IMG/VR virus record: IMGVR_UViG_3300017782_000268
Coordinates: 1 to 21,611 of that record
Strand: one strand, 5' to 3'
Origin: a virus
DNA: 21,611 nt
The notes under the pieces were generated by a model, which did no database searches, was not told the DNA's origin, and worked only from the letters and a program-made list of their open reading frames with translations. This document shows positions 2,546 through 21,611 of the stretch, in pieces (position 1 is the first letter of the stretch; each line of letters starts with the position of its first letter). A program made the position numbers and the translations under genes.

Positions 2546-2914
2546 ATGGCGATAACACAAGACACGGCGTACAGCTTTGGACAACTAGGTTCTTTATTTT
2601 TAGACGCTTCAGGAGCTGCAAGTCCTCCAACAGGTAAGGTTTTTGTAGCTATTACATTTTTAGCAGACACAGTGTTTGATGCTTCAGGTGGATTAGTTGC
2701 AGACACTACTAGCACAGCTAAATTAGGTTTAGAATACGCAGGTACAGAAGCAGCTGCTCATAATCTATCAGATGGTAGTGAGACAGCAATATCAGGATCT
2801 GGTGGTTTGCAAATTGATGCTTCAAATACTTTTCCTAAAGGAGTTACTATTTACGGTAGATATACAGAAATAGATTTAACTTCAGGTATGTGCATAGCTT
2901 ACATAGGCGACTAA
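2546..2914 (+). CDS. small beta-rich phage protein, unknown function
   Basis: This 122-residue protein starts at ATG 2546 (MAITQDTAYSF), two bases after the holin stop; an upstream in-frame extension would lie inside the holin gene and is rejected. It is rich in Ala, Ser, Thr and Gly, and ends FPKGVTIYGRYTEIDL, then IAYIG. Such endings are common in small structural proteins of marine phages, where they often accompany fibres or head decorations. No catalytic motif, coiled coil or membrane segment is seen. Its stop overlaps the ATG of the lectin-like gene (TAATG), so the two are probably made together, and a shared place on the virion surface is plausible but unproven. Confidence 0.75.
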   Translation: MAITQDTAYSFGQLGSLFLDASGAASPPTGKVFVAITFLADTVFDASGGLVADTTSTAKLGLEYAGTEAAAHNLSDGSETAISGSGGLQIDASNTFPKGVTIYGRYTEIDLTSGMCIAYIGD

Positions 2915-3627
2915 TGCTAGGACTAGGTAATAGCATATCTCAAGCTGGCTCTATATCTTTTACACCTACAGATATATCTGGACTTCAACTTTGGCTACAA
3001 AACGGAGTTGGTATAACATCTTCAGGTGATCCAGCGGTTATTGACGCTTGGGCTGATTCTTCTGGTAATGGGCTTAATGCTACAGCAAGCGTTGGTAAAA
3101 AACCTTATTTAGTAGACGGTGGAGGTGAATGGGAAGGCGACAGTGATGCTGACGCTTTACAGTTATCAGCAGCGCAAACTGTAAATCAATTTCATATATT
3201 TTTTGCTATAGCTGCCGATGAACACTCCACAAACAACTTGCTAGCTAACGCAAACACTGACTTCTTGAGAATAGGTCAAGGAGGTAGTAGTACTCAGCAT
3301 AGGCTTAGGGCTAACGGCACAACAGTAACTTTTAACGCAACTACAGCCATAGCAACCGACGGCAATAAGCAACTATTAGAGTATGAAGTTGCTACTGGAA
3401 CTTCTAACAACGCATTTTTAAGAATTAACGGAGCTGTAGAAAGCACTCAAAGCTTTGATGGTGACAATAATCCTTTTGACTATGGCTTTGTAGGTGCATT
3501 AACAGCAGCTGGTACTAGTAGTTTTGATGGTAAAATATACGAAGTATTAGTTTATGAAAGAGGGCTTAGCTCTGCCGAAGCTACAGACGTTAGAAATTAT
3601 TTAAACGGCAAATTAGAATTATATTAA
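2914..3627 (+). CDS. LamG / concanavalin A-like lectin domain protein
   Basis: This 237-residue protein is close to a single jelly-roll LamG-type (Laminin_G_3) domain. It begins with DISGLQLWLQ, then VIDAWADSSGNGLNATA, the usual opening of this family. Strand-like segments such as QFHIFFAIA and AFLRINGA follow, and it closes with FDGKIYEVLVYERGLSSAE and a final YLNGKLELY helix, the standard ending of phage and bacterial LamG domains. Such domains bind glycans. Here it may be a surface-exposed adhesin or decoration helping the virion stick to host or environmental polysaccharides. ATG 2914 was chosen over an in-frame GTG at 2890 because the ATG overlaps the upstream stop as TAATG and gives the expected domain start. 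There is no signal peptide. Confidence 0.8.
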   Translation: MLGLGNSISQAGSISFTPTDISGLQLWLQNGVGITSSGDPAVIDAWADSSGNGLNATASVGKKPYLVDGGGEWEGDSDADALQLSAAQTVNQFHIFFAIAADEHSTNNLLANANTDFLRIGQGGSSTQHRLRANGTTVTFNATTAIATDGNKQLLEYEVATGTSNNAFLRINGAVESTQSFDGDNNPFDYGFVGALTAAGTSSFDGKIYEVLVYERGLSSAEATDVRNYLNGKLELY

Positions 3628-3955: not shown

Positions 3956-4151
3956 TATCGGCAAAGACTATAAGAATGACGCCATGCACTATGCCGTTGG
4001 GCAAGAAGTGTATGGTGGTCATACTATTTGCGATATTATAGAAGAAGAAGACAAGTTTTCTGTTTACATTAGAAAAGGTAAAGATGTTTTGCCTTGGAAA
4101 GACTTTAACAAAAACATGGCTGTATCTGTTGAATATAACCTGCAATACTAA
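3930..4151 (+). CDS. conserved-looking 73-residue phage protein, unknown
   Basis: This small protein has the sequence pattern of a single small beta domain: KISIGKDY at the start, HYAVGQEVYGG (residues 20-30), then FSVYIRKGKDVLPWKDFN and a final MAVSVEYNL strand. The pattern feels like a recurrent hypothetical protein found near terminase genes of marine phages, but I cannot give it a function. It starts inside the end of the coiled-coil gene (26-base overlap) and its TAA overlaps the next ATG by one base, so it is very likely translated by coupling from both sides. Its codon use (many ATA and AGA codons) fits the neighbours. Confidence 0.75.
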   Translation: MSKLIRKISIGKDYKNDAMHYAVGQEVYGGHTICDIIEEEDKFSVYIRKGKDVLPWKDFNKNMAVSVEYNLQY

Positions 4152-4732
4152 TGAAAAGCGTTTATAACTTTGTTGTAGAGCCAATAGGTGAAAGATATAA
4201 CAACGTTAAAAAAATCGGAAACTCTGAGTTAATAACAAACACTGAGGTTTTTAATCACCAACATGTTAACAGGCTAGCTAGAGTAGTGTCTACACCAACA
4301 AAGCTTAAAACAAATATTAAGCCAGGTGATACGGTACTAGTACATCACAATGTGTTTAGACGTTGGCACGACGTTAAAGGCAAAGAAAGAAACAGTAAAT
4401 CTTTTTTTAACGAAAACACATATATAATTTCAATAGATCAAATATTTTTATTTAAGTCAAAAGAAAAGTGGAAAGCACCTGACGGCTATTGCTTTGTCAA
4501 GCCTATAAAAGCTGTAGATCAATTTAATACTGAACAAGAAAGGCCTTTAATAGGTGTTGTTAAATATTCTGACAAAGTTGTTGAGGTAGGTGATTTAGTA
4601 GGTTTTAGACCTAGCAGCGAATACGAGTTTGTTGTTGAAGGCGAAAGACTGTATAGAGTATTATCAAATTTTATTACTATTAAGTATGAATATCAAGGAG
4701 ACGAAGAAGAGTATAATCCAAGCTGGGCATAG
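4151..4732 (+). CDS. double GroES-like barrel protein (putative second co-chaperonin)
   Basis: This 193-residue protein reads as two Cpn10-like units. Unit 1 (about residues 4-102) has FVVEPIGER, a loop GNSELITNTEV resembling a GroES mobile loop, RLARVVSTPT, then KPGDTVLVHHNVF and a closing YIISIDQIFLF. Unit 2 (about 112-182) has GYCFVKPIKA, PLIGVVKYSD, VEVGDLVGFRP and ERLYRVLSNFITIKYE. In the GroES of this window the matching segments are NNYIIVENIKA, ANVISTGN, EDKDVVYYD and DKLYQVIQSRDVVLI. The order and the spacing of strands fit the barrel, including the (V)GD turn. Unit 2 has a shortened mobile loop. It could cap a chaperonin or be a structural barrel that borrowed this fold. Overlaps both neighbouring genes. 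Fold confidence is moderate, function speculative. Confidence 0.65.
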   Translation: MKSVYNFVVEPIGERYNNVKKIGNSELITNTEVFNHQHVNRLARVVSTPTKLKTNIKPGDTVLVHHNVFRRWHDVKGKERNSKSFFNENTYIISIDQIFLFKSKEKWKAPDGYCFVKPIKAVDQFNTEQERPLIGVVKYSDKVVEVGDLVGFRPSSEYEFVVEGERLYRVLSNFITIKYEYQGDEEEYNPSWA

Positions 4733-7176: not shown

Positions 7177-9594
7177 ATGGCAGAGTCTGTTATAAAGAAT
7201 TATTTTCCAAGTCAAACCGTAAGTGATGCTGAAAAGCTTAGTTATGATTACGGTTTAAAAGTTGCAAAAGCTATAGAACAAGAGTGGTTTAATGGCGATA
7301 AAATAACTAGCAAGTATAGAAATAGTCTAAATGATTTTCACAGGCTAAGGCTTTATGCTAGAGGAGAGCAATCAATACAAAAGTATAAAGATGAGTTATC
7401 TATAAATGGAGACTTGTCTTACTTGAATTTAGACTGGAGCCCAGTTCCTATTATACCTAAGTTTGTTGATATTGTAGTAAATGGTATAGCTGAAAGAACT
7501 TACGATATAAAAGCTTACTCACAAGATCCTAATGGAGTTGCAAAAAGAACTAGATACATGGAGTCAATTATGGACGATATGGAGTTTAAAGATTTAAACG
7601 ATTTAGTTTCAACTCAATTTAACTTAGACTTAAGAGAAAGTGAAGAGCCTGTTTTACCTCAAACAATTGAAGAGCTACAGCTTCACATGCAGCTTAGCTA
7701 CAAGCAAGCAGTAGAGTTGGCTGAAGAACAAGCTCTAAATGTTTTACTAGATGGTAACAAATACGAATTAACTAAAAAAAGATTTTTCTACGATTTAACT
7801 GTTTTAGGTATTGGTGCTGTAAAAAATAACTTTTCAACATCTGAAGGAATAACAATAGATTACGTAGATCCAGCTGATCTTGTATACTCATATACAGATT
7901 CGCCTTATTTTGATGATATATATTATGTTGGAGAAGTTAAGTCAATACCAATAAACGAACTTGTAAAACAGTTTCCACATCTAGACCAGGAAGAAATAGA
8001 AGATATAGCTAAAAATTCTAGTTATTACAGAAGCAATAATCAAGGAAGATATAGCACAGACAAGGACGATAATAATAAGGTTCAAGTTTTGTATTTTAAC
8101 TTTAAAACTTTCATGAACGAAGTATATAAAGTTAAGCAGGTTGGATCTGGAGCTGAAAAAGCTATAGAGCGAGACGACACGTTTAATCCTCCTAATGAAG
8201 CTGAAGACTACTACAAGCTGCAGAGAGCTGTTGAAGTGTTATACGAAGGAGTTTTAATACTAGGGACTAATAAGCTCGTTAAGTGGGAAATGGCTAGAAA
8301 CATGATGAGGCCAAAAAGCGACTTTACTAAAGTTAAAATGAATTATTCTATTGTAGCGCCTAGAATGTACAATGGTAAAATAGAATCACTAGTTAAGCGT
8401 ATTACAGGTTTTGCTGATATGATTCAGCTTACTCATTTAAAATTACAACAAGTAATGTCAAGACTTGTTCCGGATGGCGTTTACTTAGATGCGGACGGTT
8501 TAGCTGAAATAGATTTAGGTAACGGTACAAATTATAATCCACAGGAAGCTTTAAATATGTTTTTCCAAACAGGTTCTGTTATTGGTAGATCATTTACTTC
8601 TGAAGGAGACGTGAATCCTGGCAAAGTGCCTATTCAAGAAATACAGTCAAGCTCTGGCGGGCAGAAAATGCAAAGTCTTATACAGACTTACAATTACTAT
8701 TTGCAGATGATACGCGATGTCACCGGTCTAAATGAAGCTAGAGATGGTAGCATGCCAGATAAAAACGCTTTAGTCGGTGTTCAAAAGCTTGCTGCAGCAA
8801 ATAGCAACACCGCAACAAGACATATATTACAAGCTGGTTTATTTTTAACAGCTGACACCTGCGAGTGTTTATCGCTTAGAATATCTGATGTATTAGAGTA
8901 CTCTCCAACAAAAGATGCTTTCGTGCAAGCTATTGGAGCACATAATGTAGCTACGTTAGAAGAACTTGAAGAACTGCATATGTATGATTTTGGTATATTT
9001 TTAGAGTTAATGCCAGATGAAGAAGAGAAAGCAAAGCTGGAAAACAATATTCAAATGGCGTTACAGCAACAGAATATAGAACTAGAGGACGCTATTGATC
9101 TTAGAGAAATAAGAAACATAAAACTTGCTAATCAACTTCTTAAAATACGTAGAAAGAAAAAGCAAGAAAGAGATAGAGCTTTGCAATTAGAAAACATACA
9201 GGCTCAAACTGAATCTAATGCTCAAGCGGCTCAACAAGCAGCTCAAGTAGAAGTGCAAAAAGAACAAGCACTTACTCAAAGCAAGATGCAACTAGAAAGT
9301 CACAAAGCACAACTTGAAGCTCAAAAAATGCAACAAGAAATAGAAGCTAAAAAACAATTAATGGAAGTTGAGTTTTCCTACAACATGCAGCTAAGAAAAG
9401 CTGACTCTGACAATTTGACTCAAAAGGAAAGAACAAAAGAAGATCGTAAGGACGAAAGAACTAAAATACAAGCTTCACAGCAGTCAGAGCTTATAGATCA
9501 AAGAAATAAAGGTAAAGCACCTAAAAACTTTGAGTCTGCAGGTAATGATAGTACTGGAAGTGGATTTGACTTAGAAGCGTTTACGCCTAGGTAG
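7177..9594 (+). CDS. portal protein
   Basis: This 805-residue protein should form the dodecameric ring through which DNA enters and leaves the head. The central part (about residues 230-600) has portal-like features: YVDPADLVYSY, LQQVMSRLVPDGVYLDADGL, then MIRDVTGLNEARDGSMPDKN and a helix-rich stem/wing region. From about residue 615 to 775 there is a very long Gln/Glu/Lys/Ala-rich coiled coil (barrel-type extension), as in podovirus portals with tall crowns or barrels. The last 20 residues contain FESAGNDS, which returns near the start of the next protein. ATG 7177 lies two bases after the terminase stop. Type confidence is high from order and motifs; the internal boundaries are estimates. 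Confidence 0.88.
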   Translation: MAESVIKNYFPSQTVSDAEKLSYDYGLKVAKAIEQEWFNGDKITSKYRNSLNDFHRLRLYARGEQSIQKYKDELSINGDLSYLNLDWSPVPIIPKFVDIVVNGIAERTYDIKAYSQDPNGVAKRTRYMESIMDDMEFKDLNDLVSTQFNLDLRESEEPVLPQTIEELQLHMQLSYKQAVELAEEQALNVLLDGNKYELTKKRFFYDLTVLGIGAVKNNFSTSEGITIDYVDPADLVYSYTDSPYFDDIYYVGEVKSIPINELVKQFPHLDQEEIEDIAKNSSYYRSNNQGRYSTDKDDNNKVQVLYFNFKTFMNEVYKVKQVGSGAEKAIERDDTFNPPNEAEDYYKLQRAVEVLYEGVLILGTNKLVKWEMARNMMRPKSDFTKVKMNYSIVAPRMYNGKIESLVKRITGFADMIQLTHLKLQQVMSRLVPDGVYLDADGLAEIDLGNGTNYNPQEALNMFFQTGSVIGRSFTSEGDVNPGKVPIQEIQSSSGGQKMQSLIQTYNYYLQMIRDVTGLNEARDGSMPDKNALVGVQKLAAANSNTATRHILQAGLFLTADTCECLSLRISDVLEYSPTKDAFVQAIGAHNVATLEELEELHMYDFGIFLELMPDEEEKAKLENNIQMALQQQNIELEDAIDLREIRNIKLANQLLKIRRKKKQERDRALQLENIQAQTESNAQAAQQAAQVEVQKEQALTQSKMQLESHKAQLEAQKMQQEIEAKKQLMEVEFSYNMQLRKADSDNLTQKERTKEDRKDERTKIQASQQSELIDQRNKGKAPKNFESAGNDSTGSGFDLEAFTPR

Positions 9595-9596
9595 AT

Positions 9597-9620
9597 TTAT
9601 TAATTATTTTATATTATATT
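9597..9620 (+). promoter_or_regulatory. TTATTAA leader before the scaffold gene
   Basis: TTATTAA (9597-9603) lies 17 bases before ATG 9621, followed by T-rich sequence with TTATATTATATT. A similar TTATATTATAT run precedes the gene at 12373. No Shine-Dalgarno. Confidence 0.25.
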
Positions 9621-10781
9621 ATGGAAGAAAATGAAAACGTAGTTGAAGAAACTACACAAGAAACAAACAAGGTTGATGAAAGTAAATTTGAAAGCGCTGG
9701 AGATGACAGCGTTGCTAAAGTTGACTTAAGTACACCTGTAGAAACTGAAACCGATGAAAAAGACCAAGCTGAAGATGATGGAGTTGACAACACAGGAGTG
9801 GTTGGAAGCGATGAAGCTACCGAGCCCGCACAGGAACAAAAAGAAGTACAGGAGGAAAACGAAACACAAGAACCTCCAGTATTAGAAGAAGTTGTTGACG
9901 AAGAGATTGAAGAAGTTGTTGAGCAGGTTGAAGAAGCTATAGCTCAATCAGAAGCCACTGGAAAACCATTACCAGAAAACGTCCAAAAGTTAGTTGACTT
10001 TATGGAGGAAACTGGTGGTGATATAAACGACTATGTTAGACTCAATAAAGATTACAGCCAAGCAGATGGCGATGAAGTTTTAAGAGAATACTATAGATTA
10101 ACTAAACCTCATCTTGACGTAGAAGAAAGATCGTTTTTATTAAATGAAAACTTTTCTTTTGATGAAGACGTAGATGATGAAGTAGACATAAGAAAAAAGA
10201 AAATCGCTTACAAAGAGCAAGTTGCCGAAGCGAAAGCCTATTTAGACGGGCAAAAGTCTAAGTATTACGATGAGATTAAAGCTGGTTCAAAGCTAACTGT
10301 AGAACAACAGAAAGCCGTGGATTTCTTTAATCGATATAACAAGGAATCAGAAGCTAGTGAAGCACTGCAATCTAAGTTTCTTAAAAAGACTGATTCAGTC
10401 TTTACCAATAAGTTCAAAGGTTTTGAATATAATGTTGGTGACAAGAAATATAGATTTAATGTAAAAGATGCTACAAAGGTTAAAGAGACCCAAAGCGACA
10501 TTAACAACTTTGTCAAAAAGTTTTTGAACGAAGACGGAACAATGTCAGATGCTAAAGGTTATCATAAGGCTTTGTACTCGGCAATGAACTCTGATGCTAT
10601 AGCTCAACATTTCTACGAGCAAGGTAAGGCTGACGCTTTAAAGAAAAGTGTTGCTAAGTCTAAAAACGTAGATATGACGCCACGTCAAAATCACAATGAG
10701 TTTGAGGCTGGTGGAATAAAAGTTAAGGTGTTAGGAAACGACTCTTCTGATTTTAAGTTTAAAATTAAAAACAGAAAATAA
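9621..10781 (+). CDS. acidic capsid scaffolding protein
   Basis: This 386-residue protein lies between portal and major capsid genes, the standard scaffold position. The first 120 residues are extremely rich in Glu, Asp, Gln and Val and probably disordered. A helical middle section follows, with LPENVQKLVDFMEETGG and INDYVRLNKDYS (about residues 117-150). The C-terminal part has helices with many Lys (DFFNRYNKES, KKFLNEDGTMSD) and ends basic, in DFKFKIKNRK. An acidic start, helical core and basic capsid-binding tail are typical of scaffolds, which direct shell assembly and then leave. The N-terminus holds KFESAGDDS (22-30), nearly the same as the end of the portal. No protease motif is visible. 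Confidence 0.8.
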   Translation: MEENENVVEETTQETNKVDESKFESAGDDSVAKVDLSTPVETETDEKDQAEDDGVDNTGVVGSDEATEPAQEQKEVQEENETQEPPVLEEVVDEEIEEVVEQVEEAIAQSEATGKPLPENVQKLVDFMEETGGDINDYVRLNKDYSQADGDEVLREYYRLTKPHLDVEERSFLLNENFSFDEDVDDEVDIRKKKIAYKEQVAEAKAYLDGQKSKYYDEIKAGSKLTVEQQKAVDFFNRYNKESEASEALQSKFLKKTDSVFTNKFKGFEYNVGDKKYRFNVKDATKVKETQSDINNFVKKFLNEDGTMSDAKGYHKALYSAMNSDAIAQHFYEQGKADALKKSVAKSKNVDMTPRQNHNEFEAGGIKVKVLGNDSSDFKFKIKNRK

Positions 10782-10782
10782 T

Positions 10783-10809
10783 TTATTAACCCATTTAAAA
10801 CTATAAAAA
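10783..10809 (+). promoter_or_regulatory. TTATTAAC leader before the major capsid gene
   Basis: TTATTAAC (10783-10790) lies ahead of ATG 10810, followed by an A-rich stretch ending ACTATAAAAA. An ACTATAAAAA also lies before the gene at 13262. Given the expected high output of the capsid gene, a promoter or strong translation leader here would make sense, but this is not shown. Confidence 0.3.
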
Positions 10810-12309
10810 ATGGCAATTTCAAATCCAGGCGCTGGTCACTCCGGCGTCACAGGTAGCTTGAATAGTGTAGCAGCTTCACAAAAAGCGCTATTATCTTCAA
10901 ACTACATTGACTTTACTGCATCAGGCACAGAAGGCTGGGCTCAGCAGTATTTACCAGACCTAATGGAAAAAGAGGCTGAAGTATTCGGTAACAGAACTAT
11001 TTCAGGATTCTTATCTCAAGTAGGTGCTGAAGAAGCGATGACTTCTGACCAAGTTATTTGGTCTGAGCAAGGTCGTTTACACTTATCTTACACAGGTACT
11101 ATCAATAACACGACAGGTGTGTTTGCTTGTCTAAAAGATATTGACGGCAACGATTTAACTACTACTCACGGTGTTCGTATTAACGACATAGTTGTTGTAG
11201 CTACAGCTGAGGGTGTTATCAAATGTCTATGTACAGCTGTTTCAGGTGCTGATATTACATTGTTACCTTACGAGCAAGCTAACATCGATGATGCTAGTGC
11301 TTTCGGTACAGGTACTTCTAATGCTGCTACTATCTTAGTTATCGGTTCTGAATTTGGTAAAGGTAAGCAAGGGCAAGGCGCTACAACTGCAACTGTAAAT
11401 AACGGTTTCGGAGCTGTAGAACCTACTCACAAGTCTTTTACAAACAAGCCGATTATCTTAAAAGATTACTACGAAATCAACGGATCTGATGTATCTCAAA
11501 TTGGTTGGGTAGAAATCTCTGGAGAAGATGGACAGAACGGTTACTTATGGTATCTAAAAGCTGAAGGCGAAACTCGCTCTCGTTTTTCTGATTACCTAGA
11601 AATGAGCATGCTAGAAGCTGTTAAAGGTATTCCTGGAAACTCAACTGCAGAAGGTACTATCCGTACTGCTGGTGACACTTTCGGTACTGAAGGTTTATTC
11701 GCTGCTATTGAAGATAGAGGTAACATTACAACTGGTATTACTGGTGTTAACGCTGCTACTGATTTAGCTGAGTTTGACGCTATCTTAGCAGAGTTTGACA
11801 AGCAAGGTGCTATTGAAGAAAACATGATGTTCGTTAACCGTGCTTCTAGCTTGGCTATCGACGATATGCTAGCTTCTATGAACTCTTACGGTGCTGGTGG
11901 TACTTCTTACGGAGTATTTAACAACTCTGAAGATATGGCTTTAAACTTAGGTTTCTCTGGATTCCGTAGAGGTTCTTATGATTTCTACAAATCAGATATG
12001 AGATACTTAAATGACAAATCTACTCGTGGATCTATCAACGATAGAGCTGCAGGCTTTGGTATCCGTGGGGTTATTATCCCAGCTGGTGTGTCTACTGTAT
12101 ACGACCAAACATTAGGAAAAAATCTTAAACGTCCGTTCTTACACGTACGTTATAGAGCTTCTCAAATGGACGATAGAAGAATGAAAACTTGGATTACTGG
12201 ATCTATTGGCGGAAACGTTACTTCTGATCTTGATGCAATGCAAGTTAACTATTTATCTGAAAGATGTTTAGTTGTACAAGGTGCTAACAACTTCATGTTA
12301 ATGAAGTAA
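10810..12309 (+). CDS. major capsid protein
   Basis: This 499-residue protein is taken as the shell subunit, HK97 fold by class. Support: it follows the scaffold, has the expected size, and its C-terminal half has capsid-like motifs (IPAGVSTVYD, FLHVRYRASQMDDRR, MKTWITGSIGG, then a final LSERCLVVQGANNFML). A N-terminal arm with ASQKALLSSNY and EGWAQQYLPDLM precedes the core. Codon use differs from the rest of the window: isoleucine is ATT or ATC with a single ATA by my count, and arginine is often CGT rather than AGA. This is what selection for high expression produces. A strong terminator follows within 12 bases. No sign of a separate maturation cleavage was identified. Confidence 0.88.
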   Translation: MAISNPGAGHSGVTGSLNSVAASQKALLSSNYIDFTASGTEGWAQQYLPDLMEKEAEVFGNRTISGFLSQVGAEEAMTSDQVIWSEQGRLHLSYTGTINNTTGVFACLKDIDGNDLTTTHGVRINDIVVVATAEGVIKCLCTAVSGADITLLPYEQANIDDASAFGTGTSNAATILVIGSEFGKGKQGQGATTATVNNGFGAVEPTHKSFTNKPIILKDYYEINGSDVSQIGWVEISGEDGQNGYLWYLKAEGETRSRFSDYLEMSMLEAVKGIPGNSTAEGTIRTAGDTFGTEGLFAAIEDRGNITTGITGVNAATDLAEFDAILAEFDKQGAIEENMMFVNRASSLAIDDMLASMNSYGAGGTSYGVFNNSEDMALNLGFSGFRRGSYDFYKSDMRYLNDKSTRGSINDRAAGFGIRGVIIPAGVSTVYDQTLGKNLKRPFLHVRYRASQMDDRRMKTWITGSIGGNVTSDLDAMQVNYLSERCLVVQGANNFMLMK

Positions 12310-12320
12310 GCATATTATTA

Positions 12321-12350
12321 GGTCGGGGCTTCGGCCCCGATCTTTTTTTT
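12321..12350 (+). terminator. intrinsic terminator after the capsid gene
   Basis: A nine-pair stem (12321-12329 with 12334-12342, one G-U pair) encloses a TTCG loop closed by C-G, the extra-stable cUUCGg tetraloop, and is followed directly by eight T residues (12343-12350). It lies 12 bases past the capsid stop. It should end most capsid transcripts while some read through into the connector genes. Confidence 0.93.
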
Positions 12351-12372
12351 TAATTTTTTATTATATTATATC

Positions 12373-13200
12373 ATGGCAAAAAAACAAACAAACAAGGCTA
12401 GTGTAGCGCCTGAAGTAAAAGCTACCAATGAAATGCAAGAGGTTGTTATTGAAAAACCTAAAAAGCAAGTTAAACCAAGTTGGGAAGTAAAAGATAGAGT
12501 TTATTATTTGAAAAACAATAAAACTGCTTTGTCTTATTCTATGAAGTCTTCTGGAATATATTATTTTGACGAAGAAAAAGGTTACGAAAGAGAGCTTAAG
12601 TACTGTGAAAATCAAAGAACGACTTTTGTTGACGAAATGCAAGGTGATCAAAGATTATCACATATTATTTTTAGAAACGGAGCTCTTTATGTTCCAAGAG
12701 AAAAAGTAACTTTGCAAAAATTACTTTCGTTATACCACCCGATGAGAGACAAGCTTTTTTACGAGCACAAACCTCAAGAGGTTGCTGCTAGTGAGCTTGA
12801 CTATCTAGAAATGGAAGCTGACGCTTTAGTACTAGCAAGAACGCTAGATATTGATAAGATGGAAGCTATTATGAGAGTAGAAGTAGGTTCTAAAGTATCA
12901 GAGATGAGTTCTAAAGAGCTTAAACGTGACTGCTTGCTATTTGCAAGAAAAAATCCTGAGTTATTCTTAGAGCTAGTCGAAGACGACAACGTAGAGCTTA
13001 GAAACTTTGGTATAAAAGCTACAGAGCTTGGTATTATTAAACTTTCATCAGATCAAAGAACTTTTACATGGGGTTCTAACGATAGAAAGCTAATGACAAT
13101 TCCGTTTGATGAGCACCCATATTCTGCTTTAGCCGCATGGTTTAAAACAGACGAAGGTATGGAGATATATTCAAACATAGAAAAACAACTAAGCATGTAA
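12373..13200 (+). CDS. conserved phage structural or assembly protein, unknown function
   Basis: This 275-residue protein lies between the capsid and connector genes. It has a Lys-rich, flexible N-terminus (1-40), a beta-rich domain with VKDRVYYL, GIYYFDEEKGYER, CENQRTTFVDE and HIIFRNGALYVPREKVTLQKLLSLYHP (about 40-122), then a helical part with YLEMEADALVLAR and SSKELKRDCLLFARKNPELFLEL. The latter motif recurs by my recollection in uncharacterised proteins beside marine phage capsid genes. I do not assign a function; a head-completion or minor head role would fit the place. The start is ATG 12373, after the terminator and a TTATATTATAT leader, so it probably depends on read-through or a local promoter. 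Confidence 0.8.
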   Translation: MAKKQTNKASVAPEVKATNEMQEVVIEKPKKQVKPSWEVKDRVYYLKNNKTALSYSMKSSGIYYFDEEKGYERELKYCENQRTTFVDEMQGDQRLSHIIFRNGALYVPREKVTLQKLLSLYHPMRDKLFYEHKPQEVAASELDYLEMEADALVLARTLDIDKMEAIMRVEVGSKVSEMSSKELKRDCLLFARKNPELFLELVEDDNVELRNFGIKATELGIIKLSSDQRTFTWGSNDRKLMTIPFDEHPYSALAAWFKTDEGMEIYSNIEKQLSM

Positions 13201-13206
13201 TTACCC

Positions 13207-13248
13207 TATAGTAGAGCAGCCACTCTTCGGGGTGGTTGCTTAACTATA
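13207..13248 (+). ncRNA. long intergenic hairpin with UUCG loop, no U-tract
   Basis: Eleven pairs join 13215-13225 to 13230-13240 around a TTCG loop (two G-U pairs). An outer six-pair stem, TATAGT (13207-13212) with ACTATA (13243-13248), extends it, separated by an A-A mismatch and a G-U. No T-run follows, so it is a poor intrinsic terminator. It may slow exonucleases, be processed, or shape translation of the next gene, whose ATG lies 14 bases further on. Confidence 0.75.
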
Positions 13249-13261
13249 AAAATAAAACATA

Positions 13262-13978
13262 ATGGCAGTAAGTGTAGACACAGTATATCAAACAGTATTG
13301 GCGCTAGCCAACAAAGAGCAAGGAGGATACATAACTCCTCAAGAATTTAACTTATTTGCTAATCATGCTCAATCAGAAATATTTGAGCAATACTTTTACG
13401 ATCTTAATCAATTTAAAAGAGGTAGAGGCAGTGACGATAATGAGTCTGATATGGTTTCTTTGCTAGAAGATAAAATAGCTATATTTAGCTCAATATCAAC
13501 GCTTTCAAATCAAGATCCAAACGCAAGCAACTCAAAGTTTACATTACCTAGTAGTTTTTATAGACTAATAGACGTCAGAACTGGATCTAGCCATAGCAAC
13601 GTTCAAGTAAATAAACTTTCAAGAAAAGACTTTTGGGAATACAATCAAGGCCCACTTACTAAAGGAACCTTAAGTAGACCTAACTGCTACCTTCATCAAG
13701 ATGGAGTAATTTGGGTAAATCCTGATGGAATAGAAAAAATACACGCAAACTACATTAGAAAGCCAAAAACTCCTAAGTGGACATATGTTGTTGTAAATGA
13801 AAAAGCTTTATGGAACCCTATGGCTTCAGACAAGCAAGACTTTGAGCTTCACTCCTCAGAGCAGCATAACTTGGTTGTTAAGATACTAAAGCTTGCGGGT
13901 GTTTCTATAAAAGACTACAACTTAGCTCAAGCTGCAGGTCAAAACGACGTTCAAAATATTCAACAACAAAAATCTTAA
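13262..13978 (+). CDS. head-tail connector (ring/adaptor) protein
   Basis: This 238-residue protein begins SVDTVYQTVLALANKEQGG, then ITPQEFNLFANHAQSEIFEQY. This opening resembles the adaptor or ring proteins encoded after the capsid gene in crAss-like and related podoviruses. It then has TLPSSFYRLIDVRT (about residue 98-111) and a beta-rich stretch with CYLHQDGVIWVNPDG, and ends with helices and a Gln-rich tail. Such proteins sit between the portal and the tail. It follows the hairpin and precedes the next connector by four bases. Family membership is by pattern recognition; the exact ring position in the particle cannot be told. Confidence 0.75.
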   Translation: MAVSVDTVYQTVLALANKEQGGYITPQEFNLFANHAQSEIFEQYFYDLNQFKRGRGSDDNESDMVSLLEDKIAIFSSISTLSNQDPNASNSKFTLPSSFYRLIDVRTGSSHSNVQVNKLSRKDFWEYNQGPLTKGTLSRPNCYLHQDGVIWVNPDGIEKIHANYIRKPKTPKWTYVVVNEKALWNPMASDKQDFELHSSEQHNLVVKILKLAGVSIKDYNLAQAAGQNDVQNIQQQKS

Positions 13979-13982
13979 GTAA

Positions 13983-15569
13983 ATGGGTTTAATAAATAAA
14001 ACTGACAAACAATATTACGAAGGTAATAATTTAGGAGGCTATCAGTTCGTATCGCTAGACGATGTTATATCTCAATTTATGGCTGTTTATGTTGGCGATG
14101 AGAAAATAATAAACAAAGTGAGTAGATCTGATGTAAGTTTCTGGGCTCAACGAGCTTTAGCTGAACTTTCATTTGATACTTTAAAATCTATTAAGTCTCA
14201 GCAAATAGACTTACCGCCTAGCTTAACAATGAGGCTTCCTAAAGATTATGTTAACTATACTCACTTAAGCTACGTAGACGCTTCTGGTGTTAAGCACCCG
14301 TTGTATCCAACTAAAGATACGAATAATCCTTTTCAAGTAACTCAAGATGCGGATAAAGAATATATTTTTAATGAGCTAATAAGTTCTGGCATTAATTTAA
14401 ACACTCGAGGAGGGTGGGACTTTACCGCAGAAGGAATGAAAGGTGTTAAGAAAGCGGGTGAACTTACTTGGGGCACATCGCTTGGAATTAATAACACCTT
14501 AAAAATAGGTCAAGCTCCTAGAAGAAGATTTTCACCTATAGAAGGATTTGTTGTATCTGGTTATCACGAGGTTGACGTGTCAATATTTAAAAAAGCTTTT
14601 TTTTCAGCTTCAGCAACAACAGTAGCACCAAGCACGCAGGTTATCACTCAAGCGGAAGTAGACGATCTAGCTGTAAATGGAACTAAAGTAGATGGAGAAG
14701 TACCTTACGCTAGTACCGCCGCAACATACAACACTCCTGGTACAACTATAAGGGTTGGTTTAAGTACTAGTATTCCTTCAAACAACGTTAGACAAAACGG
14801 ATGGGGATCTCCAGACGCAAGTGACTATGATCCACCTAGTCCAAACTTAGATCCTGCTTATTTTGATATTGGATACCTTGAGTGGAGCAATGGCGAAACA
14901 GGTGAAAAGCAGTTAGAAACCAGCGTAGACTTTACGAATATGCAAGGCTCTATTTACGTTACTATTATAGCTATAGCGCCTTGGACAGAGACAGACGTAC
15001 CAACTTCAGCGAGTACAATAAGCCAAATACTTCAAGTAGAATCTACGGTATCTAACATATCTTTAGAGTCTGATATATCAGTAGGCTTGTTAGATCAAAC
15101 TGGAGCTGAAGAATCATCTACGTTTACTAACTATAAAAATTCAAACCCAAGCGAAAACGCTAGAGCTGACGATTATATAGATGATATATATTGGCCTAAC
15201 GAAGGTGAAAGATACGGATTAGATCCAGTAAGAGCACAAGTAAACGGATCTTTTTACATTGACGAAAGATTAGGTAAAATAAACTTTAGCTCTAACATTT
15301 CTGGAAAAACTGTGATCTTAGACTACATAAGTGATAGTCTTGGAACTGACAGCGAAATGCAAGTGCATAAGTTTGCAGAAGAAGCTTTATATAAGTGGAT
15401 AACATACGGTGTTTTATCTACTAAATCTAATGTTCCTGAAATGATAGTAAGGCGCGCAAAAAAAGAAAAGTTTGCTGCTACTAGACAGGCTAAACTAAGA
15501 TTATCAAACGTTAAGTTAGGTGAGATAACCCAAGTATTAAGAGGGAAGTCTAAACAAATAAAACACTAG
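13983..15569 (+). CDS. head-tail connector / tail ring protein with central insertion
   Basis: This 528-residue protein has two ends that look like one connector fold. The N-terminal part holds IINKVSRSDVSFWAQRALAEL, then DTLKSIKSQQIDLPPSLTMRL and KDYVNYTHLSYVD (about residues 42-97). The C-terminal part holds NFSSNISGKTVILDY and HKFAEEALYKWI, ending in helices rich in basic residues with RQAKLRLSN and LRGKSKQIKH. Between them (about residues 200-380) is a Ser/Thr/Pro-rich, beta-type segment unlike the flanks, probably an inserted surface domain. The order fits a T7 gp11-like or crAss-ring role at the junction of portal and nozzle. It starts with ATG 13983, and the next gene begins after TAGTAA. 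Confidence 0.75.
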   Translation: MGLINKTDKQYYEGNNLGGYQFVSLDDVISQFMAVYVGDEKIINKVSRSDVSFWAQRALAELSFDTLKSIKSQQIDLPPSLTMRLPKDYVNYTHLSYVDASGVKHPLYPTKDTNNPFQVTQDADKEYIFNELISSGINLNTRGGWDFTAEGMKGVKKAGELTWGTSLGINNTLKIGQAPRRRFSPIEGFVVSGYHEVDVSIFKKAFFSASATTVAPSTQVITQAEVDDLAVNGTKVDGEVPYASTAATYNTPGTTIRVGLSTSIPSNNVRQNGWGSPDASDYDPPSPNLDPAYFDIGYLEWSNGETGEKQLETSVDFTNMQGSIYVTIIAIAPWTETDVPTSASTISQILQVESTVSNISLESDISVGLLDQTGAEESSTFTNYKNSNPSENARADDYIDDIYWPNEGERYGLDPVRAQVNGSFYIDERLGKINFSSNISGKTVILDYISDSLGTDSEMQVHKFAEEALYKWITYGVLSTKSNVPEMIVRRAKKEKFAATRQAKLRLSNVKLGEITQVLRGKSKQIKH

Positions 15570-15572
15570 TAA

Positions 15573-18500
15573 ATGGCGGAAATCAAAAACACTTTTAGTC
15601 AAGGTAAAATGAACAAAGACCTTGACGAAAGACTTATACCTAATGGACAATATAGAGACGCTTTAAACGTTGAAATAACTTCTGATGGTGAGTCTGCAGA
15701 GACAGGTAGCGCTGGTACAATATCTAATATAAAAGGTAATATACCTTTAGAAAACGTTGTACCAAGTGATAAATGTGTTTGCGTAGGAAGTGTTGCAGAT
15801 GAAAAAAATAATAAGCTATATTGGTTTGTTAAGTGTGAAGGATTTCCGCAGTCTGGAGACACAGCGTTTCCTAATAGAGATGCTATAATAGAGTACGATA
15901 CCGTATCAAAAGAATCTACTTTCCTTATTACTGATCTCCGTAGTAAGTTTACTAACTCTGCTGGAAGCACAGTAAAGCCTATATTAAATTTTTCTGGCAA
16001 GAAAATAACTTCAATAAATATAATAGATCAGTATTTAATATGGTCTGATGGAGAGACAGAGCCTAAAAAAATAAATATTGAAAAAGCTAAAGAAGCTACA
16101 ATAAAACAAAACAACGGCACAAATGGAAGAGGATCTTTAAACCATCACTCTTATCTATATGTTAATGGTGTTAACACTGTTCAGTACTTACAAGAAGAAA
16201 ATATAACTGTAATAAAGAAAAAGCCTTTAATGGCTCCTAGATATAGTGTTGTTAGTGCTAAGAATTCTGAATTTGATCCTAAATTAAATCCTACGCCTCT
16301 TAAAAAAGCTATATTTGAAAAAATATTCCCTAGATTTTGTTTGAGATATAAATACCAAGATGGTGAGTATTCTGCTTTTGGACCTTTTACTAATGTTATA
16401 TTTAACCCTGAGTTTGTAGGTGAATATTCTGTACTAAACGCTTTTACAGCAAAAGAGCCTTATAACAAGGCTATGGTTAACGCTATAAGAACAATAAATT
16501 TTTATGGTTTAGTTACTCCAGATATGCCTAAAGACGTTGTGCAGATAGACATTTTGTATAAGCAAGAAAACTCTACTGTAATTCACAATGTAGGTAGCAT
16601 TAAAAATACAGATCCAGAATGGTTTGAAGATGGTAACTGGTTTAAACAACAAGGATTAGCAGACTACGATAGTTATAACCCTACTACTAAAGGCGTTTTT
16701 ATTGTAGACACAGAAAACATACACGCCGCTTTACCTGAGAATCAATTTTTAAGAGTATGGGATGCTGTGCCAAGAAAAGCACAAGCTCAAGAAGTAACTG
16801 GAAATAGATTAGTTTTTGCCAACTATACTGAGGGTTACGATATGGTTGTGGACAACTCTGACTTTAAACCTAAAGTTTTAGGAGACTTTGAGCCAAGGCA
16901 AATTGATGTTGATAGTATTTTTAGAGGTGAAGGCGCCTTTGGATACTCGCTAAACATGTCGCAGAACTTAACCGGTAGATTTGAAAACGCTACATCAATA
17001 TCTTCAACTAGGGATAGAGGTAATATTTATTCGTACGTAGCCGCTCCAGTAGCAGATCCATCTCGACCATTAGCATATGCTTATACTGGCTACAGAGGAG
17101 CAGGATTGCCTACTATAAAATCTCAACGAGACTACCAATTAGGTGTTGTCTTTGGAGATGAATACGGTAGAGAAACACCTGTATTTACTTCCGATCTAGC
17201 TACAGTAAAAATTCCTTGGGAAGGAGCTTACGGACTATCTGCTAGCACGTCATTATCTATAGCTGCATCACTAGGCAACACCCCGCCTAGTTGGGCTAAG
17301 TATTACAAGTTTTACATAAAACAATCTGCTGGAGAGTATTATAATATAGCGATGGATAAAGTGTATAGACCAGCAACTTCTTCTCCAGAGTTTGATAACG
17401 ACTTAAATCACGTTTGGGTTTCTTTTGCTTCTTCTGATAGAGATAAAATAGATACGGGTGAATATATAACAATTAAAAAGATTATAAACGATTATGCTAC
17501 TCAAATACAAAAAGAAAATAAATATAAAGTACTAGACATTTCAAACGAAATGCCAGACTCTATAGCTTTTGAGTATTATAATTTAGGAACTAGAAGTAAT
17601 ATAAATAGTGCTTTAACTGATGAAAATATAACAGATGCAATTCCTATATTTACACAAGATCCTACGTCAAATGAAGAAAATAGAATAGACAGAATAACTA
17701 ACACTATTGAGATTTCAAAAACAAACTGGCTAGCTGGAAGTGGAGCTGCTTTAACTAAAGAAGATATTGACGGTTACACAGAAAGAGATGGTGGATTATA
17801 TATTTCTTGGAGAAGATCTACACAGTCTAGTAGAGTTTTTTCCAAAAGATATAAGGTAACTTCTGTAACTTTTCAAAGTAATAAATACATATTAAAACTT
17901 GCTGAATTTATACAAGAGCAAGATGCTAAGTTAGCTGCTAATAGTTCTGATTTATCTACTACTTCAGTAGGTTTAGGTGGTACTGTAACGGCTGACACTT
18001 TAACTTTTCAAATAGAAAGAAAAGAAAAGAAAACTAAAGAGGCTTTTGATGGCAGGTTTTTTGTTAAGATAGCCGCAGATTATATATTAGAAGAATACTT
18101 GCTTAGCGAGTTTAAAGAAGAGTTTACTGATTTTTATGTTAACGGAGTGCAAAAGTTGTTTTATTTAGCAGATGGCATAACTACAGGTTTTGACGCCTCG
18201 TCTGCTATAGTTAACTCTGAAAACTCAGCTGAAATACAGTCTTATCAAGATGACAGTGATGTTACTTCTCCTAGCGATATTCATTCTGGAGGTTCTTTAA
18301 CAGATCTTCAATCAGAGTGGCAAGCTTTAATGGACGATGATAACTTTGGTGTAAGAACAAGTCCTACAAGCAATAGCTCTGCTGGTAACGGTGGGTTTTT
18401 TATAGATGCAATGTATTTTGCCGCAATAAACAGTGATTCTGCAAATTCGTATGCTAAGTACGCTGGCCAAGGTTGGACTGGTAACTTATCTGTTGAATAT

Positions 18501-21500
18501 CCTGAAATTGAGTGGGGTAGAATAATAGACTACAGAACAAGAGATAATGATCTTCCAGGCTCAGATTGGTTAACAACTCTTGCAACAAGCAGTTATGGTA
18601 GAGATTATAATGTAGCAGCTAGAAGAGCTAGGTACGGCTGGAGACAAGCTGGTGTTAATGAAAACCAGGAAACTAATGCCGATGCTTGGATAGAATCAAG
18701 TAGCGCGTCAAACTTTGGTGGTGGTGCATATAGAAGCCAGTGGAGAAACTGGAATCACGGAAATTTCTCAACATGGCAAGTTTTAGAAGGCACGTCAGAA
18801 ACGGTAGAAACAGATAGAGAGTCTGAAGTAAATGGGTTTGAAGGCATTTTACAGCAAGCTTCTCCAGTTCATTATTCTTTACCTTCCGATGGTGGTTATA
18901 GAAATTTTCTCACTAACATATATGGTAAAATACCTAATGGAAGAACAACATCTAAAAATGTTTACAAGTCTAATATAAACGGTGTTACACCATCTTATTT
19001 ACATTTGTCTTATTTAGGACCAGGGTATTCGGCTAATCTTTTTAATAGAAACTCAGTGCCTTCAGACGTAGGCTTGCATGGCGAAAAAGCTTTAGGTCGT
19101 TATTTAGGTGGAATATGGGGAGGCGGAGCATTTACAAACCAAAATGGAACTAACTTTGGTTCATCTAATATAAGGTTTGTTGAAATGGAAGGAACAAATT
19201 GGGAGGATAGAATAGCTTATTCTGACAATGGAAATATACAGCCTGCAGCTTCTAGCCGTGACACCACGCAGGAAGAAAATATGCCTTCAGATATAACAAG
19301 ATCTAAGCCACCTAGACCTGGAGATGACACAAAGTACTTTGGGTACGACAGCAGCAAAGGAACACTTCATTCAAAGCAATGGGTTCCTGGTGGTGATGCT
19401 GGAACTATAGAGCACGTTTATAATTTTGCTACTCAAGATCTGCAGCAAGGTGCTCAATTTAGATTTAAAAACGATACAAGCGAAGATATATATACTGTGC
19501 TTGAAAAATCTGAGCTTCATATATATAATCACACTCCTTGGAAAGCTAGAAAAATATGGGATGGTACTGAGTACGTTTGGGGTAATGATAGTGTAGAAGA
19601 AGCTGTTGCCGCTTGGGCAGACACAGCCGATGTTAACGGTCAACCTGTTAACAATTTAGATGCTGAGTTTGGTGTTATGCTAAATAGATTAGAAGCGTTT
19701 GGTGATAGATCTAATAGAAGAACTACTTATGTATTGGCCTTAGATAAACCTGTACAAACATCTTCGTATAATCCTGTGCTAGGAGCAGACACGCAAGGCA
19801 CGCAGGTGCTACCTGATGCCACTGCTTTTACTGATATAGAGTTTATAAGAAACAATCCTATGGTATTGACCGGTGAGGTTAATAAAGATCCAGCTATATG
19901 GGAAACTGAGCCTACAAGCAACAACGAGCTTGATGTTTATTATGAGGCTTCTAACGCTATACCTACCAAGCTTAATAAATATAATCTTGATTTGTTTGCG
20001 CCTCAAGGAACCAGAATAGAGTTTCCTAACATGGACAATAGTATTATAAAGCACGACTATGCTGTTTACTTGCGTAGATGGAATGGTCCAATGTCAAGCT
20101 ATAACGATGAAGTAATAAGGCTTGAAGTTAGAGGTTTAAATGGTGGGGACACAGGTTTTAAATGGTTTTCTGGAGATACTAATATAGACTACAAAGGTCA
20201 AGAGGTTAGGTTTTATAGACAAGACGGCAGTTACACTACAGCTACTACAGCTAACATTGATATAGAGCAGTTTTACATAGACACGGACAATATGACTGAC
20301 GGGTCTGGCGATTACTGGAAAGGCAAAAACACAGCTGCGTATATATTTATTAAAAATACTATAGACCCTACGAAGCAAGTAGGATTAAGCTGGTTTAACG
20401 CGTTTACGTTTACCGACGGAGTTGAGTCTAACAGAATTAGAGACGACTTCAACGAAATGACAATATCTAACGGCGCTAGAGTTTCTACAACACTAGACGA
20501 GCCTTACAAAGAAGAAGTCAAATCTAATAGTTTAATATATTCTGGTATATATAACTCTAACTCTAAGTTAAACAGCTTAAACGAATTTATTACAGCTGAA
20601 AAAATAACAAAAGACTTAAACCCTACATACGGTAGTATACAAAAGCTTTTTTCAAGAAACTCAGATTTAATAGCTTTTTGCGAAGATAGGGTTGTTAAAA
20701 TATTAGCTAATAAAGATGCTGTATTCAATGCTGATGGTAATCCTCAACTAATAGCGTCAAATAGAGTTCTTGGTCAAGCAACACCTTTTGCTGGCGACTT
20801 TGGTATATCTAAAAACCCAGAGTCTTTTGCTAAAGATTCTTATAGAGCTTATTTTGCTGATAAACAAAGAGGTGCTGTATTAAGGCTTTCTATGGACGGA
20901 TTAACACCTATATCTGAAGCGGGCATGGGTGATTGGTTTAGAGATGAATTAACCTCTACAGGTATAAGCATAATAGGTACGTTTGACGATCACGCTAGAG
21001 AGTACAATGTTACTATTAAAGAAGTTGTAGACTCTAATAGAATTCAAAACAATACTTTTGACTACGGGTCTGAAGTTAGCATTGTAAACATAGTTAATCC
21101 AGAGTTATGCACAAACCCTGATCTATCTGGTGGAGCAGAGTATACGCCTGTAGACCTTGTTAATGATATATATTATGCTGGACCAACTGCTGATTCTAGT
21201 TTAGGCATAAGTCTTGGTTTTGATGTGTATAGCAAAGTTCCTATAAGAAACAGATCTTTAGGTTATAAGTCTACAGTTAGAAACTGGCCAGCAATAGCTG
21301 AGGGATCTATAAGATCTTACGTTGCCGCAGTACCTGCTATCTTAGCGGCTAACGCGGAATACGATGTTTACAATTTGCAAAACTCTAATATGTCAGGTAT
21401 TGATACAGTTTATAAGCTGTTTCATTACACGTTTAGAAACACTAATACTAATCCTTTTAACAACCCTACGCCTAACGGGTCAAGATCTACTCTTTCAACT

Positions 21501-21611
21501 GGCTCAACGTCTACAACAGAGGTAACTTCAGGGTATCTTTTAGCAAACAGTAGTGGAGATAGATACATAGGATCTAACGACTCTACTGAACCAGGATATG
21601 ATAACGACGGC
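15573..21611 (+). CDS. giant tail nozzle/muzzle-like protein, 3' end outside the window
   Basis: The frame from ATG 15573 stays open through all 2013 codons to the window edge; I read it through and found no stop. The N-terminus NTFSQGKMNKDLDERLIP, then NGQYRDALNVEI matches tail nozzle/muzzle or stabilisation proteins of crAss-like and related podoviruses (the T7 gp12 place), where it seeds a beta-propeller. A second conserved block lies at about residues 1655-1800: NEFITAEKITKDL, GSIQKLFSRNSDL, ISKNPESFAKDSYR and QRGAVLRLSMDG. Between them is a long, Trp/Tyr/Gly-rich, less familiar region (about 850-1450). After residue 1960 a Ser/Thr/Asn-rich linker appears. It probably forms the tail outlet and may carry receptor-binding parts. 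Protein ending not visible. Confidence 0.85.
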   Translation, partial: MAEIKNTFSQGKMNKDLDERLIPNGQYRDALNVEITSDGESAETGSAGTISNIKGNIPLENVVPSDKCVCVGSVADEKNNKLYWFVKCEGFPQSGDTAFPNRDAIIEYDTVSKESTFLITDLRSKFTNSAGSTVKPILNFSGKKITSINIIDQYLIWSDGETEPKKINIEKAKEATIKQNNGTNGRGSLNHHSYLYVNGVNTVQYLQEENITVIKKKPLMAPRYSVVSAKNSEFDPKLNPTPLKKAIFEKIFPRFCLRYKYQDGEYSAFGPFTNVIFNPEFVGEYSVLNAFTAKEPYNKAMVNAIRTINFYGLVTPDMPKDVVQIDILYKQENSTVIHNVGSIKNTDPEWFEDGNWFKQQGLADYDSYNPTTKGVFIVDTENIHAALPENQFLRVWDAVPRKAQAQEVTGNRLVFANYTEGYDMVVDNSDFKPKVLGDFEPRQIDVDSIFRGEGAFGYSLNMSQNLTGRFENATSISSTRDRGNIYSYVAAPVADPSRPLAYAYTGYRGAGLPTIKSQRDYQLGVVFGDEYGRETPVFTSDLATVKIPWEGAYGLSASTSLSIAASLGNTPPSWAKYYKFYIKQSAGEYYNIAMDKVYRPATSSPEFDNDLNHVWVSFASSDRDKIDTGEYITIKKIINDYATQIQKENKYKVLDISNEMPDSIAFEYYNLGTRSNINSALTDENITDAIPIFTQDPTSNEENRIDRITNTIEISKTNWLAGSGAALTKEDIDGYTERDGGLYISWRRSTQSSRVFSKRYKVTSVTFQSNKYILKLAEFIQEQDAKLAANSSDLSTTSVGLGGTVTADTLTFQIERKEKKTKEAFDGRFFVKIAADYILEEYLLSEFKEEFTDFYVNGVQKLFYLADGITTGFDASSAIVNSENSAEIQSYQDDSDVTSPSDIHSGGSLTDLQSEWQALMDDDNFGVRTSPTSNSSAGNGGFFIDAMYFAAINSDSANSYAKYAGQGWTGNLSVEYPEIEWGRIIDYRTRDNDLPGSDWLTTLATSSYGRDYNVAARRARYGWRQAGVNENQETNADAWIESSSASNFGGGAYRSQWRNWNHGNFSTWQVLEGTSETVETDRESEVNGFEGILQQASPVHYSLPSDGGYRNFLTNIYGKIPNGRTTSKNVYKSNINGVTPSYLHLSYLGPGYSANLFNRNSVPSDVGLHGEKALGRYLGGIWGGGAFTNQNGTNFGSSNIRFVEMEGTNWEDRIAYSDNGNIQPAASSRDTTQEENMPSDITRSKPPRPGDDTKYFGYDSSKGTLHSKQWVPGGDAGTIEHVYNFATQDLQQGAQFRFKNDTSEDIYTVLEKSELHIYNHTPWKARKIWDGTEYVWGNDSVEEAVAAWADTADVNGQPVNNLDAEFGVMLNRLEAFGDRSNRRTTYVLALDKPVQTSSYNPVLGADTQGTQVLPDATAFTDIEFIRNNPMVLTGEVNKDPAIWETEPTSNNELDVYYEASNAIPTKLNKYNLDLFAPQGTRIEFPNMDNSIIKHDYAVYLRRWNGPMSSYNDEVIRLEVRGLNGGDTGFKWFSGDTNIDYKGQEVRFYRQDGSYTTATTANIDIEQFYIDTDNMTDGSGDYWKGKNTAAYIFIKNTIDPTKQVGLSWFNAFTFTDGVESNRIRDDFNEMTISNGARVSTTLDEPYKEEVKSNSLIYSGIYNSNSKLNSLNEFITAEKITKDLNPTYGSIQKLFSRNSDLIAFCEDRVVKILANKDAVFNADGNPQLIASNRVLGQATPFAGDFGISKNPESFAKDSYRAYFADKQRGAVLRLSMDGLTPISEAGMGDWFRDELTSTGISIIGTFDDHAREYNVTIKEVVDSNRIQNNTFDYGSEVSIVNIVNPELCTNPDLSGGAEYTPVDLVNDIYYAGPTADSSLGISLGFDVYSKVPIRNRSLGYKSTVRNWPAIAEGSIRSYVAAVPAILAANAEYDVYNLQNSNMSGIDTVYKLFHYTFRNTNTNPFNNPTPNGSRSTLSTGSTSTTEVTSGYLLANSSGDRYIGSNDSTEPGYDNDG

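Follow-up and report, generated by a model that had tools for sequence, protein, structure and literature searches.

The closest described counterpart of the protein considered here is gp44, the muzzle of the crassvirus PhicrAss001 (PDB 7QOK/7QOL). In the accessible part of the published description (PMC10172136), the muzzle combines a ring-joining domain with a seven-bladed propeller, as in the T7 nozzle, and carries two immunoglobulin-like (IG) domains, with a crass domain inserted in the second (IG2) and a gate loop in blade 4. According to the same part of that account, the crass and IG2 regions vary in length among muzzles, and contact between the crass domain and the cell is suggested only (PMC10172136). 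The wider question is how crassvirus-like phages recognise host glycans and how this opens the muzzle gate. We analysed a 21,611-base virus record, IMG/VR IMGVR_UViG_3300017782_000268, which in its entirety is called the window below, and in particular the giant reading frame at its 3´ end (15573-21611). We read this gene as encoding a muzzle homologue with an enlarged crass region and an insertion resembling carbohydrate-binding modules (CBMs), which would provide glycan-grasping arms on the gate, and we give this reading as a whole a probability of about 0.68. The oddity of the protein is the removable, CBM-like insertion in its propeller; its middle region is ordinary for the clade.

Extent and homology of the muzzle gene

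The frame starts with ATG and runs for 2,013 codons without a stop before the window ends. Given that the window is the whole record, the gene is cut off by the contig end. A 40,882-base contig found by scanning IMG/VR (3300017709_000005, hereafter L002) matches all 2,013 residues, with 7 differences in 6,039 nt within the gene and 3 in the 8,000 nt preceding it, and carries the frame on to its full length of 3,098 codons. The complete protein has 3,098 residues, and the window holds about the first two thirds of it. A preliminary description made from the window alone had reported a nozzle-like protein of more than 2013 residues, open at its 3´ end, with conserved blocks at the N-terminus and at about residues 1655-1800 and a size far above that of T7 gp12. 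These points are borne out: L002 supplies the missing 3´ end whose assembly had been proposed, hidden Markov models (HMMs) recover both blocks, the second here at 1620-1815, and the size was if anything understated (3,098 versus 794 residues). The nozzle-like character can be sharpened to a muzzle of the crassvirus kind by profile homology and the C-terminal Pfam domain crAss_MUZ_C. The parts of the gene within the window are as follows.

15573-21611, plus strand: muzzle homologue, residues 1-2013 of 3098; lacks its 3´ end, which L002 provides (whole gene at 8001-17297)
15573-16877, plus strand: N-terminal conserved part, residues 1-435 (PHROG 14478 match at 4-435, HMM segN, hhalign to gp44)
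16890-20462, plus strand: putative expanded IG2/crass-domain region, residues 440-1630 (alignments A3/A5, model, PDB re-alignment)
18120-19922, plus strand: clade-conserved part of the putative crass region, residues 850-1450 (no PDB match at E ≤ 0.001)
20430-21017, plus strand: conserved propeller part before the insertion, residues 1620-1815, ending ..FDDHAREYNVTI (HMM segA; aligned to gp44 up to about residue 1196)
21018-21611, plus strand: start of the propeller insertion of about 1,105 residues, residues 1816-2013 (HMMs, model)

Only the first 198 residues of the insertion fall inside the window; the rest of it (2014-2920), the crAss_MUZ_C domain (2960-3061) and the C-terminus lie at 14040-17294 of L002. 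The corresponding frame on a separate contig, L088, is 3,099 codons long and can be aligned from end to end at 63-98% identity per 100 residues. Between L002 and L088, the ratio of nonsynonymous to synonymous substitution rates (dN/dS) is 0.144 for the whole gene, 0.048 for residues 1-435, 0.14 for residues 850-1450, and 0.206 for residues 1816-2920. The protein is real, and all three of these parts are under purifying selection.

Several lines of evidence connect the gene to muzzles. The window open reading frame (ORF) matches phrog_14478, annotated as "virion structural protein", with the best stretch at residues 4-435 (E 3.8e-123). A profile was built from 31 relatives that lack the large insertion (phi38:1, elemoF and 29 sequences on fetched contigs; the program kept 29). 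Against a second profile, in which PhicrAss001 gp44 was combined with ten further crassvirus muzzles, hhalign gave a probability of 98.7 and E 2.4e-16, covering positions 1-1807 of 1822 against 2-1340 of 1371, with confident ends; an earlier comparison with gp44 alone gave a probability of 95.4 and E 2e-8. By this alignment, residues 1-435 would correspond to the first propeller blades and the IG1 region. crAss_MUZ_C (PF25729) is found at L002 residues 2960-3061, beyond the window, with 34.6 bits against a cut-off of 27, and the relative L003 reaches the Pfam model of the muzzle body, crAss_MUZ (PF25731), with 59.1 bits (cut-off 27). The genes ahead of the muzzle match terminase, portal and virion structural proteins (PHROGs), and the order TerL, portal, capsid/virion proteins, muzzle is the same in phi38:1. 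The ring protein gp43 likewise immediately precedes gp44. From these similarities, we identify the gene product as the putative muzzle (nozzle) at the tail tip of a phage with a short tail, a distant relative of the Pervagoviridae (Cellulophaga phage phi38:1) and of crassviruses.

The protein shares with gp44 near-full-length profile homology, the order of parts, the C-terminal Pfam domain and a ring-type gene just upstream. It differs in length (3,098 versus 1,371 residues), in its larger IG2/crass region, and in the insertion of about 1,105 residues, for which the ten other crassvirus muzzles (1,338-1,553 residues) are also too short. Closer at hand are phi38:1 gp97 (1,324 residues; phi38:1 is filed in Pervagoviridae), Flavobacterium phage elemoF gp22 (1,493 residues) and Maribacter phage Panino 75/74, which have the N-terminal, pre-insertion and C-terminal conserved blocks and a similar gene order but are only 29-31% identical over 39-43% of the window protein and have no insertion. 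The Panino muzzle is annotated as two frames (8998-12911 of locus L083), and the conserved block is partly missing at their junction (segA 2-75 and 119-194); this points to a frameshift, an intron or an insertion. The three phages are among the best of 87 matched phage records. Hosts named in those records are Flavobacterium, Cellulophaga, Tenacibaculum and Maribacter, and the host here is therefore probably a member of the Bacteroidota. T7 gp12 is an analogue through its propeller and ring-joining domain, as the accessible part of the gp44 study says of gp44 (PMC10172136). With its 794 residues, it shows no similarity by profile comparison (probability 0.1). To our knowledge, T7 gp12 lacks the IG, crass and inserted modules.

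The propeller insertion

HMMs place the end of the conserved propeller block at residue 1815 and the start of the following one at 2921, which leaves an insertion of about 1,105 residues (1816-2920). By alignment, its site is the turn of one propeller hairpin, at about residue 1197 of gp44; beyond it follow the rest of the conserved part and crAss_MUZ_C. The same flanking blocks are separated by 10-25 residues in phi38:1 gp97, elemoF gp22 and Panino, and by 15-16 residues, with the flanks intact, in the relatives L003, L005 and L046.

Relatives were gathered by two scans, the second with the insertion as query, and are counted among the matches listed. They comprised 164 muzzle frames, 123 of them distinct and with both conserved blocks, from which 13 with open or missing ends were dropped to give 110 complete muzzles. 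More than 300 residues are inserted at this site only in 58 of these; 20 have only an extension at the C-terminus, one (L146) has both, and 31 have neither. The 58 of 110 is no natural frequency. When a third site, before the IG1 region, is counted as well, the classes become insertion only (58), third site only (14), third site plus extension (14), extension only (6), L146 (1) and none (17). The homologous insertion never occurs together with a module at either other site (0 of 58), and because the insertion served to select part of the sample, which also follows the tree, this separation is a pattern and not an independent test. All 58 insertions, each over 500 residues, match at E ≤ 1.9e-62 a single HMM that part of them had been used to build, whereas the 455-residue stretch of L146 does not match it and is unrelated. 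Their lengths range from 587 to 1448 residues, and 57 of the 58 were taken into alignment A4 (L092 was left out). At the third site, L142, L160 and L069 carry insertions of 1,019-1,348 residues ahead of the IG1 region; L069 additionally has a C-terminal extension of 1,427 residues and reaches 4,057 residues in all. We found no description of such an insertion in a muzzle in the open-access literature, and tblastn of the insertion against 50,697 phage records gave no match at E ≤ 1; an E 0.03 match of the insertion HMM to Panino 74 is taken as chance. An entry of Virus NIOZ-UU157 in BFVD is labelled with the muzzle C-terminal domain, and long muzzles may therefore sit undescribed in databases.

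In a tree of the flanking blocks (125 rows, 352 columns; L146 scored as carrying the insertion), the insertion changes state 4 times, 3 of them forced by starred branches, as compared with a mean of 41.9 after shuffling, and the C-terminal extension changes 12 times. The insertion-bearing rows cluster together, in a 64-row group with a support of 91 (not starred) that also takes in five rows without the insertion. Three of these five (L003/L005 and L046) nest within a starred 59-row group. Most simply, the unit would have been gained once and lost in its entirety at least twice, leaving a closed hairpin. In L090 and L091, the inner part of the insertion is missing, and they are about 517 residues shorter. 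Between L002 and L088, 85-89% of synonymous codons are identical at residues 1901-2400, compared with 56-78% in the other stretches of 100 residues except the first (85%). This lower synonymous divergence, seen in one pair, hints at exchange between phages, as might be expected for a host-range module. We also considered the insertion as a relocated C-terminal extension, and BLASTP found no cross-match at 1e-3 between 30 insertions (four partial) and 16 extensions from the first scan. Nor does it appear to be a separate gene, since among 1,650 ORFs of 80 first-scan loci the insertion HMM matched only muzzle frames.

By sequence, no family was found for the insertion in Pfam or PHROGs. Searches of PDB sequences with the window protein and with profiles of the short form, the middle region and the insertion gave nothing usable, the insertion profile finding one enolase at E 1.4. 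Lone weak Pfam and PHROGs matches under the cut-off (DNAJC11_beta-barrel, LtfC, GalBD_like and others) were disbelieved. In a model of residues 1793-2981, positions from about 340 to 1115 are largely strand, and Foldseek finds single-domain matches to CBM16 and CBM61 with a probability of 1.00 and E 3e-3 to 6e-3. VIA-align matches CBM16 with Z 11.7 (2.7 Å, 119 residues), a hyaluronan-binding module with Z 11.6, CBM4-2 with Z 11.2, and CBM61 with Z 9.9. Phage proteins appear as well, with domains of tailspikes, a fibre and a baseplate at Z 9.5-11.2. At the level of the model, the insertion is shown to consist mainly of CBM-like jelly-roll beta-sandwiches. What it shares with CBM16, CBM4 and CBM61 is the jelly-roll fold of single domains; it differs in the absence of any family match by sequence and in the arrangement of its domains, which are perhaps nested. 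Kinship to insecticidal proteins, which fill most of the top multi-domain Foldseek rows and appear in VIA-align as well, was rejected, as the root mean square deviations are near or over 20 Å and only jelly rolls are shared. Matches in BFVD are multi-domain and unspecific.

Nesting is suggested by where the alignments begin and end. Most CBM16 alignments span model positions 26 or 28 to 1115 (47-975 for 2zex), and those of CBM4-2 span 50 to 975, despite just 118-141 residues being aligned in each; VIA-align reports only the first and last aligned residues. The first strand of each domain may lie at the start of the insertion, with its other strands at the far end. Near the beginning of the insertion, 51 of 57 members have the motif [LIVF]-x-[ND]-x-x-[hydrophobic]..G at 26-36 (3% expected at the rate found in other parts), and 33 of 57 have it at 44-62 (6% expected), although it was chosen after viewing the sequences. 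The motif resembles the first strand of CBM4-type modules. Both motif starts and the last ~570 aligned residues are kept in L090 and L091, whose shortening has the appearance expected if an inner doll had been taken out. In the full version of this idea, a Russian-doll arm sits in one blade, the first strands of its two base domains follow each other where the insertion begins, and their other strands return in reverse order where it ends. Six such arms would couple receptor binding and gate opening mechanically, and in sister lineages modules ahead of the IG1 region or at the C-terminal end would serve the same purpose. This version is speculative, and we hold it to be rather doubtful.

Proposed role and alternative explanations

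Our best reading of the insertion is that of a predicted glycan-grasping, receptor-binding arm within the gate protein. Because gp44 is a hexamer, six muzzle copies would form the tail-tip gate, a complex of about 2 MDa by arithmetic, and the insertions would project from it as six arms for grasping glycans on the surface of the host, probably one of the Bacteroidota. The propeller in which each arm is anchored also carries the gate loop, and the pull of binding could in this way be passed to the gate, which must open for ejection. The arms would constitute an exchangeable host-range module. We have found a phage group with about 1,100 residues of sugar-binding-type folds rooted in the gate propeller, along with close relatives free of the insertion. 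These relatives, with their flanks intact, make a link between binding and gating testable. More generally, muzzle loops are a place to seek host-range determinants in phages of what are probably marine Bacteroidota.

A number of observations weigh against this reading. The insertion model is of limited quality (mean predicted local distance difference test score, pLDDT, 69; predicted template modelling score, pTM, 0.49), reaching a pLDDT of at least 70 at 650 of 1,189 residues, and its positions from about 164 to 271 are poor, mostly below 50. No CBM family was found by sequence at E ≤ 2 (25 members of A2); jelly rolls are common, and the fold does not imply sugar binding. Within about 7 kb downstream of the muzzles of L003 or L005, we found no extra large gene as a substitute for the insertion, and so it is either dispensable there or its role is taken elsewhere. 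As to the muzzle body, hhalign aligns the middle to gp44 with low confidence, Foldseek alone ranks gp44 only 21st for a model of the middle (E 0.63), and a structural re-alignment that favours gp44 does so with Z 6.6 over 227 residues at 6.0 Å, below the caution line of 8, the next rows having 5.4. The Pfam body model crAss_MUZ is not reached for L002 at E ≤ 1; we therefore claim homology to the crassvirus muzzle and not Pfam membership of the body. Nor do we place the phage in Crassvirales.

The alternative that we take most seriously, while considering it improbable, is that the insertion is a structural brace or spacer that packs on neighbouring subunits or tail fibres and stabilises a larger muzzle with no binding to the host. 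A fold match does not demonstrate function, and the ring-like protein encoded upstream is enlarged in all 57 measurable insertion loci (of 58), with a gap of 189-490 residues, as compared with 27-56 residues in 34 of 157 ring-like frames, including those of three cultivated phages. There is no one-to-one tie, however, because 33 of 62 insertion-free loci have a large ring gap as well. Other points against a brace are that the insertion is wholly absent, with flanks intact, from L003, L005 and L046, that its size ranges from 587 to 1448 residues, and that its identity to L002 is 20-31%, as compared with 29-37% for the middle (L088 apart in both). An assembly artefact, in the form of two fused genes or a chimeric contig, might be suspected since the window is truncated and one relative, L070, has its muzzle in two frames. 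We regard this as barely credible given the near-equal frames of L002 and L088 on separate contigs, the homologous insertion at the same site in the 58 muzzles, and the dN/dS of 0.144.

Attention had previously been drawn to a different part of the protein. The preliminary description noted that roughly residues 850-1450 could not be matched to nozzle proteins and that such proteins of related phages carry receptor-binding or cargo domains; on this view the region would be a foreign domain of that type. The lack of a match holds for sequence searches, which give no family for these residues in Pfam or PHROGs and nothing usable in the PDB, and in favour of a foreign domain are the size of this region, the lack of a PDB fold match for the model at E ≤ 0.001 by Foldseek, and a dN/dS above that of the N-terminus (0.14 versus 0.05). 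Relatives of similar size carry the same middle, however: residues 440-1630 of L002 align with 59 relatives at 29-37% identity (80% for L088), with invariant or near-invariant columns along most of the length (alignment A5 took in 60 of 61 middles, leaving out L092, a near-copy). An AlphaFold model of 440-1630 has a mean pLDDT of 70 and a pTM of 0.58, with local values of 84-96 at model positions from about 691 to 770 and 871 to 950 and below 50 at 1-80 and 545-624. When 986 chains were re-aligned to it, the two gp44 chains 7qok_A and 7qol_P ranked first and second (Z 6.6 and 6.4), pairing model positions 47-1187 with gp44 326-1012. In the numbering given in the accessible part of the published account, that stretch is IG2 plus the crass domain, the cell-facing body of the muzzle (PMC10172136). 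With collinear flanks and gp44 ranking first, we therefore read the middle as an enlarged crass region and not a foreign domain; the evidence is suggestive only, and a separate fold of the inner part is possible. A foreign origin of residues 850-1450 seems to us quite unlikely. The preliminary description had named close relatives of the same size with an ordinary propeller part in the middle as what would count against its reading, and in substance this is what is seen: relatives of similar size share the middle, which on present models is muzzle body instead of propeller. A receptor-binding-like module does exist in the protein, at residues 1816-2920 and not where it had been sought.

Neighbouring genes

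Two genes immediately upstream of the muzzle are called ring-like by virtue of gene order:

13262-13978, plus strand: virion structural protein, putatively ring-like (PHROG 14543)
13983-15569, plus strand: virion structural protein directly upstream of the muzzle, putatively ring-like (PHROG 13977)

The second of these has an internal insertion of about 274 residues. Across 157 frames, which include some contig copies, the corresponding gap is 27-56 residues in 34 and 124-490 residues in 123.

Elsewhere in the window are two genes for GroES-like co-chaperonins, at 125-385 (Cpn10, 33.6 bits) and 4151-4732 (PHROG 13932, 75.6 bits); cpn10 is listed as a core gene of Pervagoviridae in the accessible part of an earlier study (PMC8776804). 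Small tandem paralogues at 458-853 and 883-1257 are 49% identical across 123 columns and have no PHROG or Pfam match. The frame at 2890-3627 may encode a LamG or concanavalin-like protein, as judged by a weak Laminin_G_3 match under the cut-off together with a PHROG virion structural match. A small protein encoded at 1701-2126 carries the HExxH-like motif NHEMRH, with a Pfam match under the cut-off, and is a possible metallopeptidase. On the far side of the muzzle, the second gene encodes 419 residues in L046 (15534-16793), a locus without the muzzle insertion, compared with 106-117 in the other loci compared. In L002, downstream genes at 19357-21931 encode proteins of 218 and 637 residues that, by position, could be internal virion or ejection proteins.

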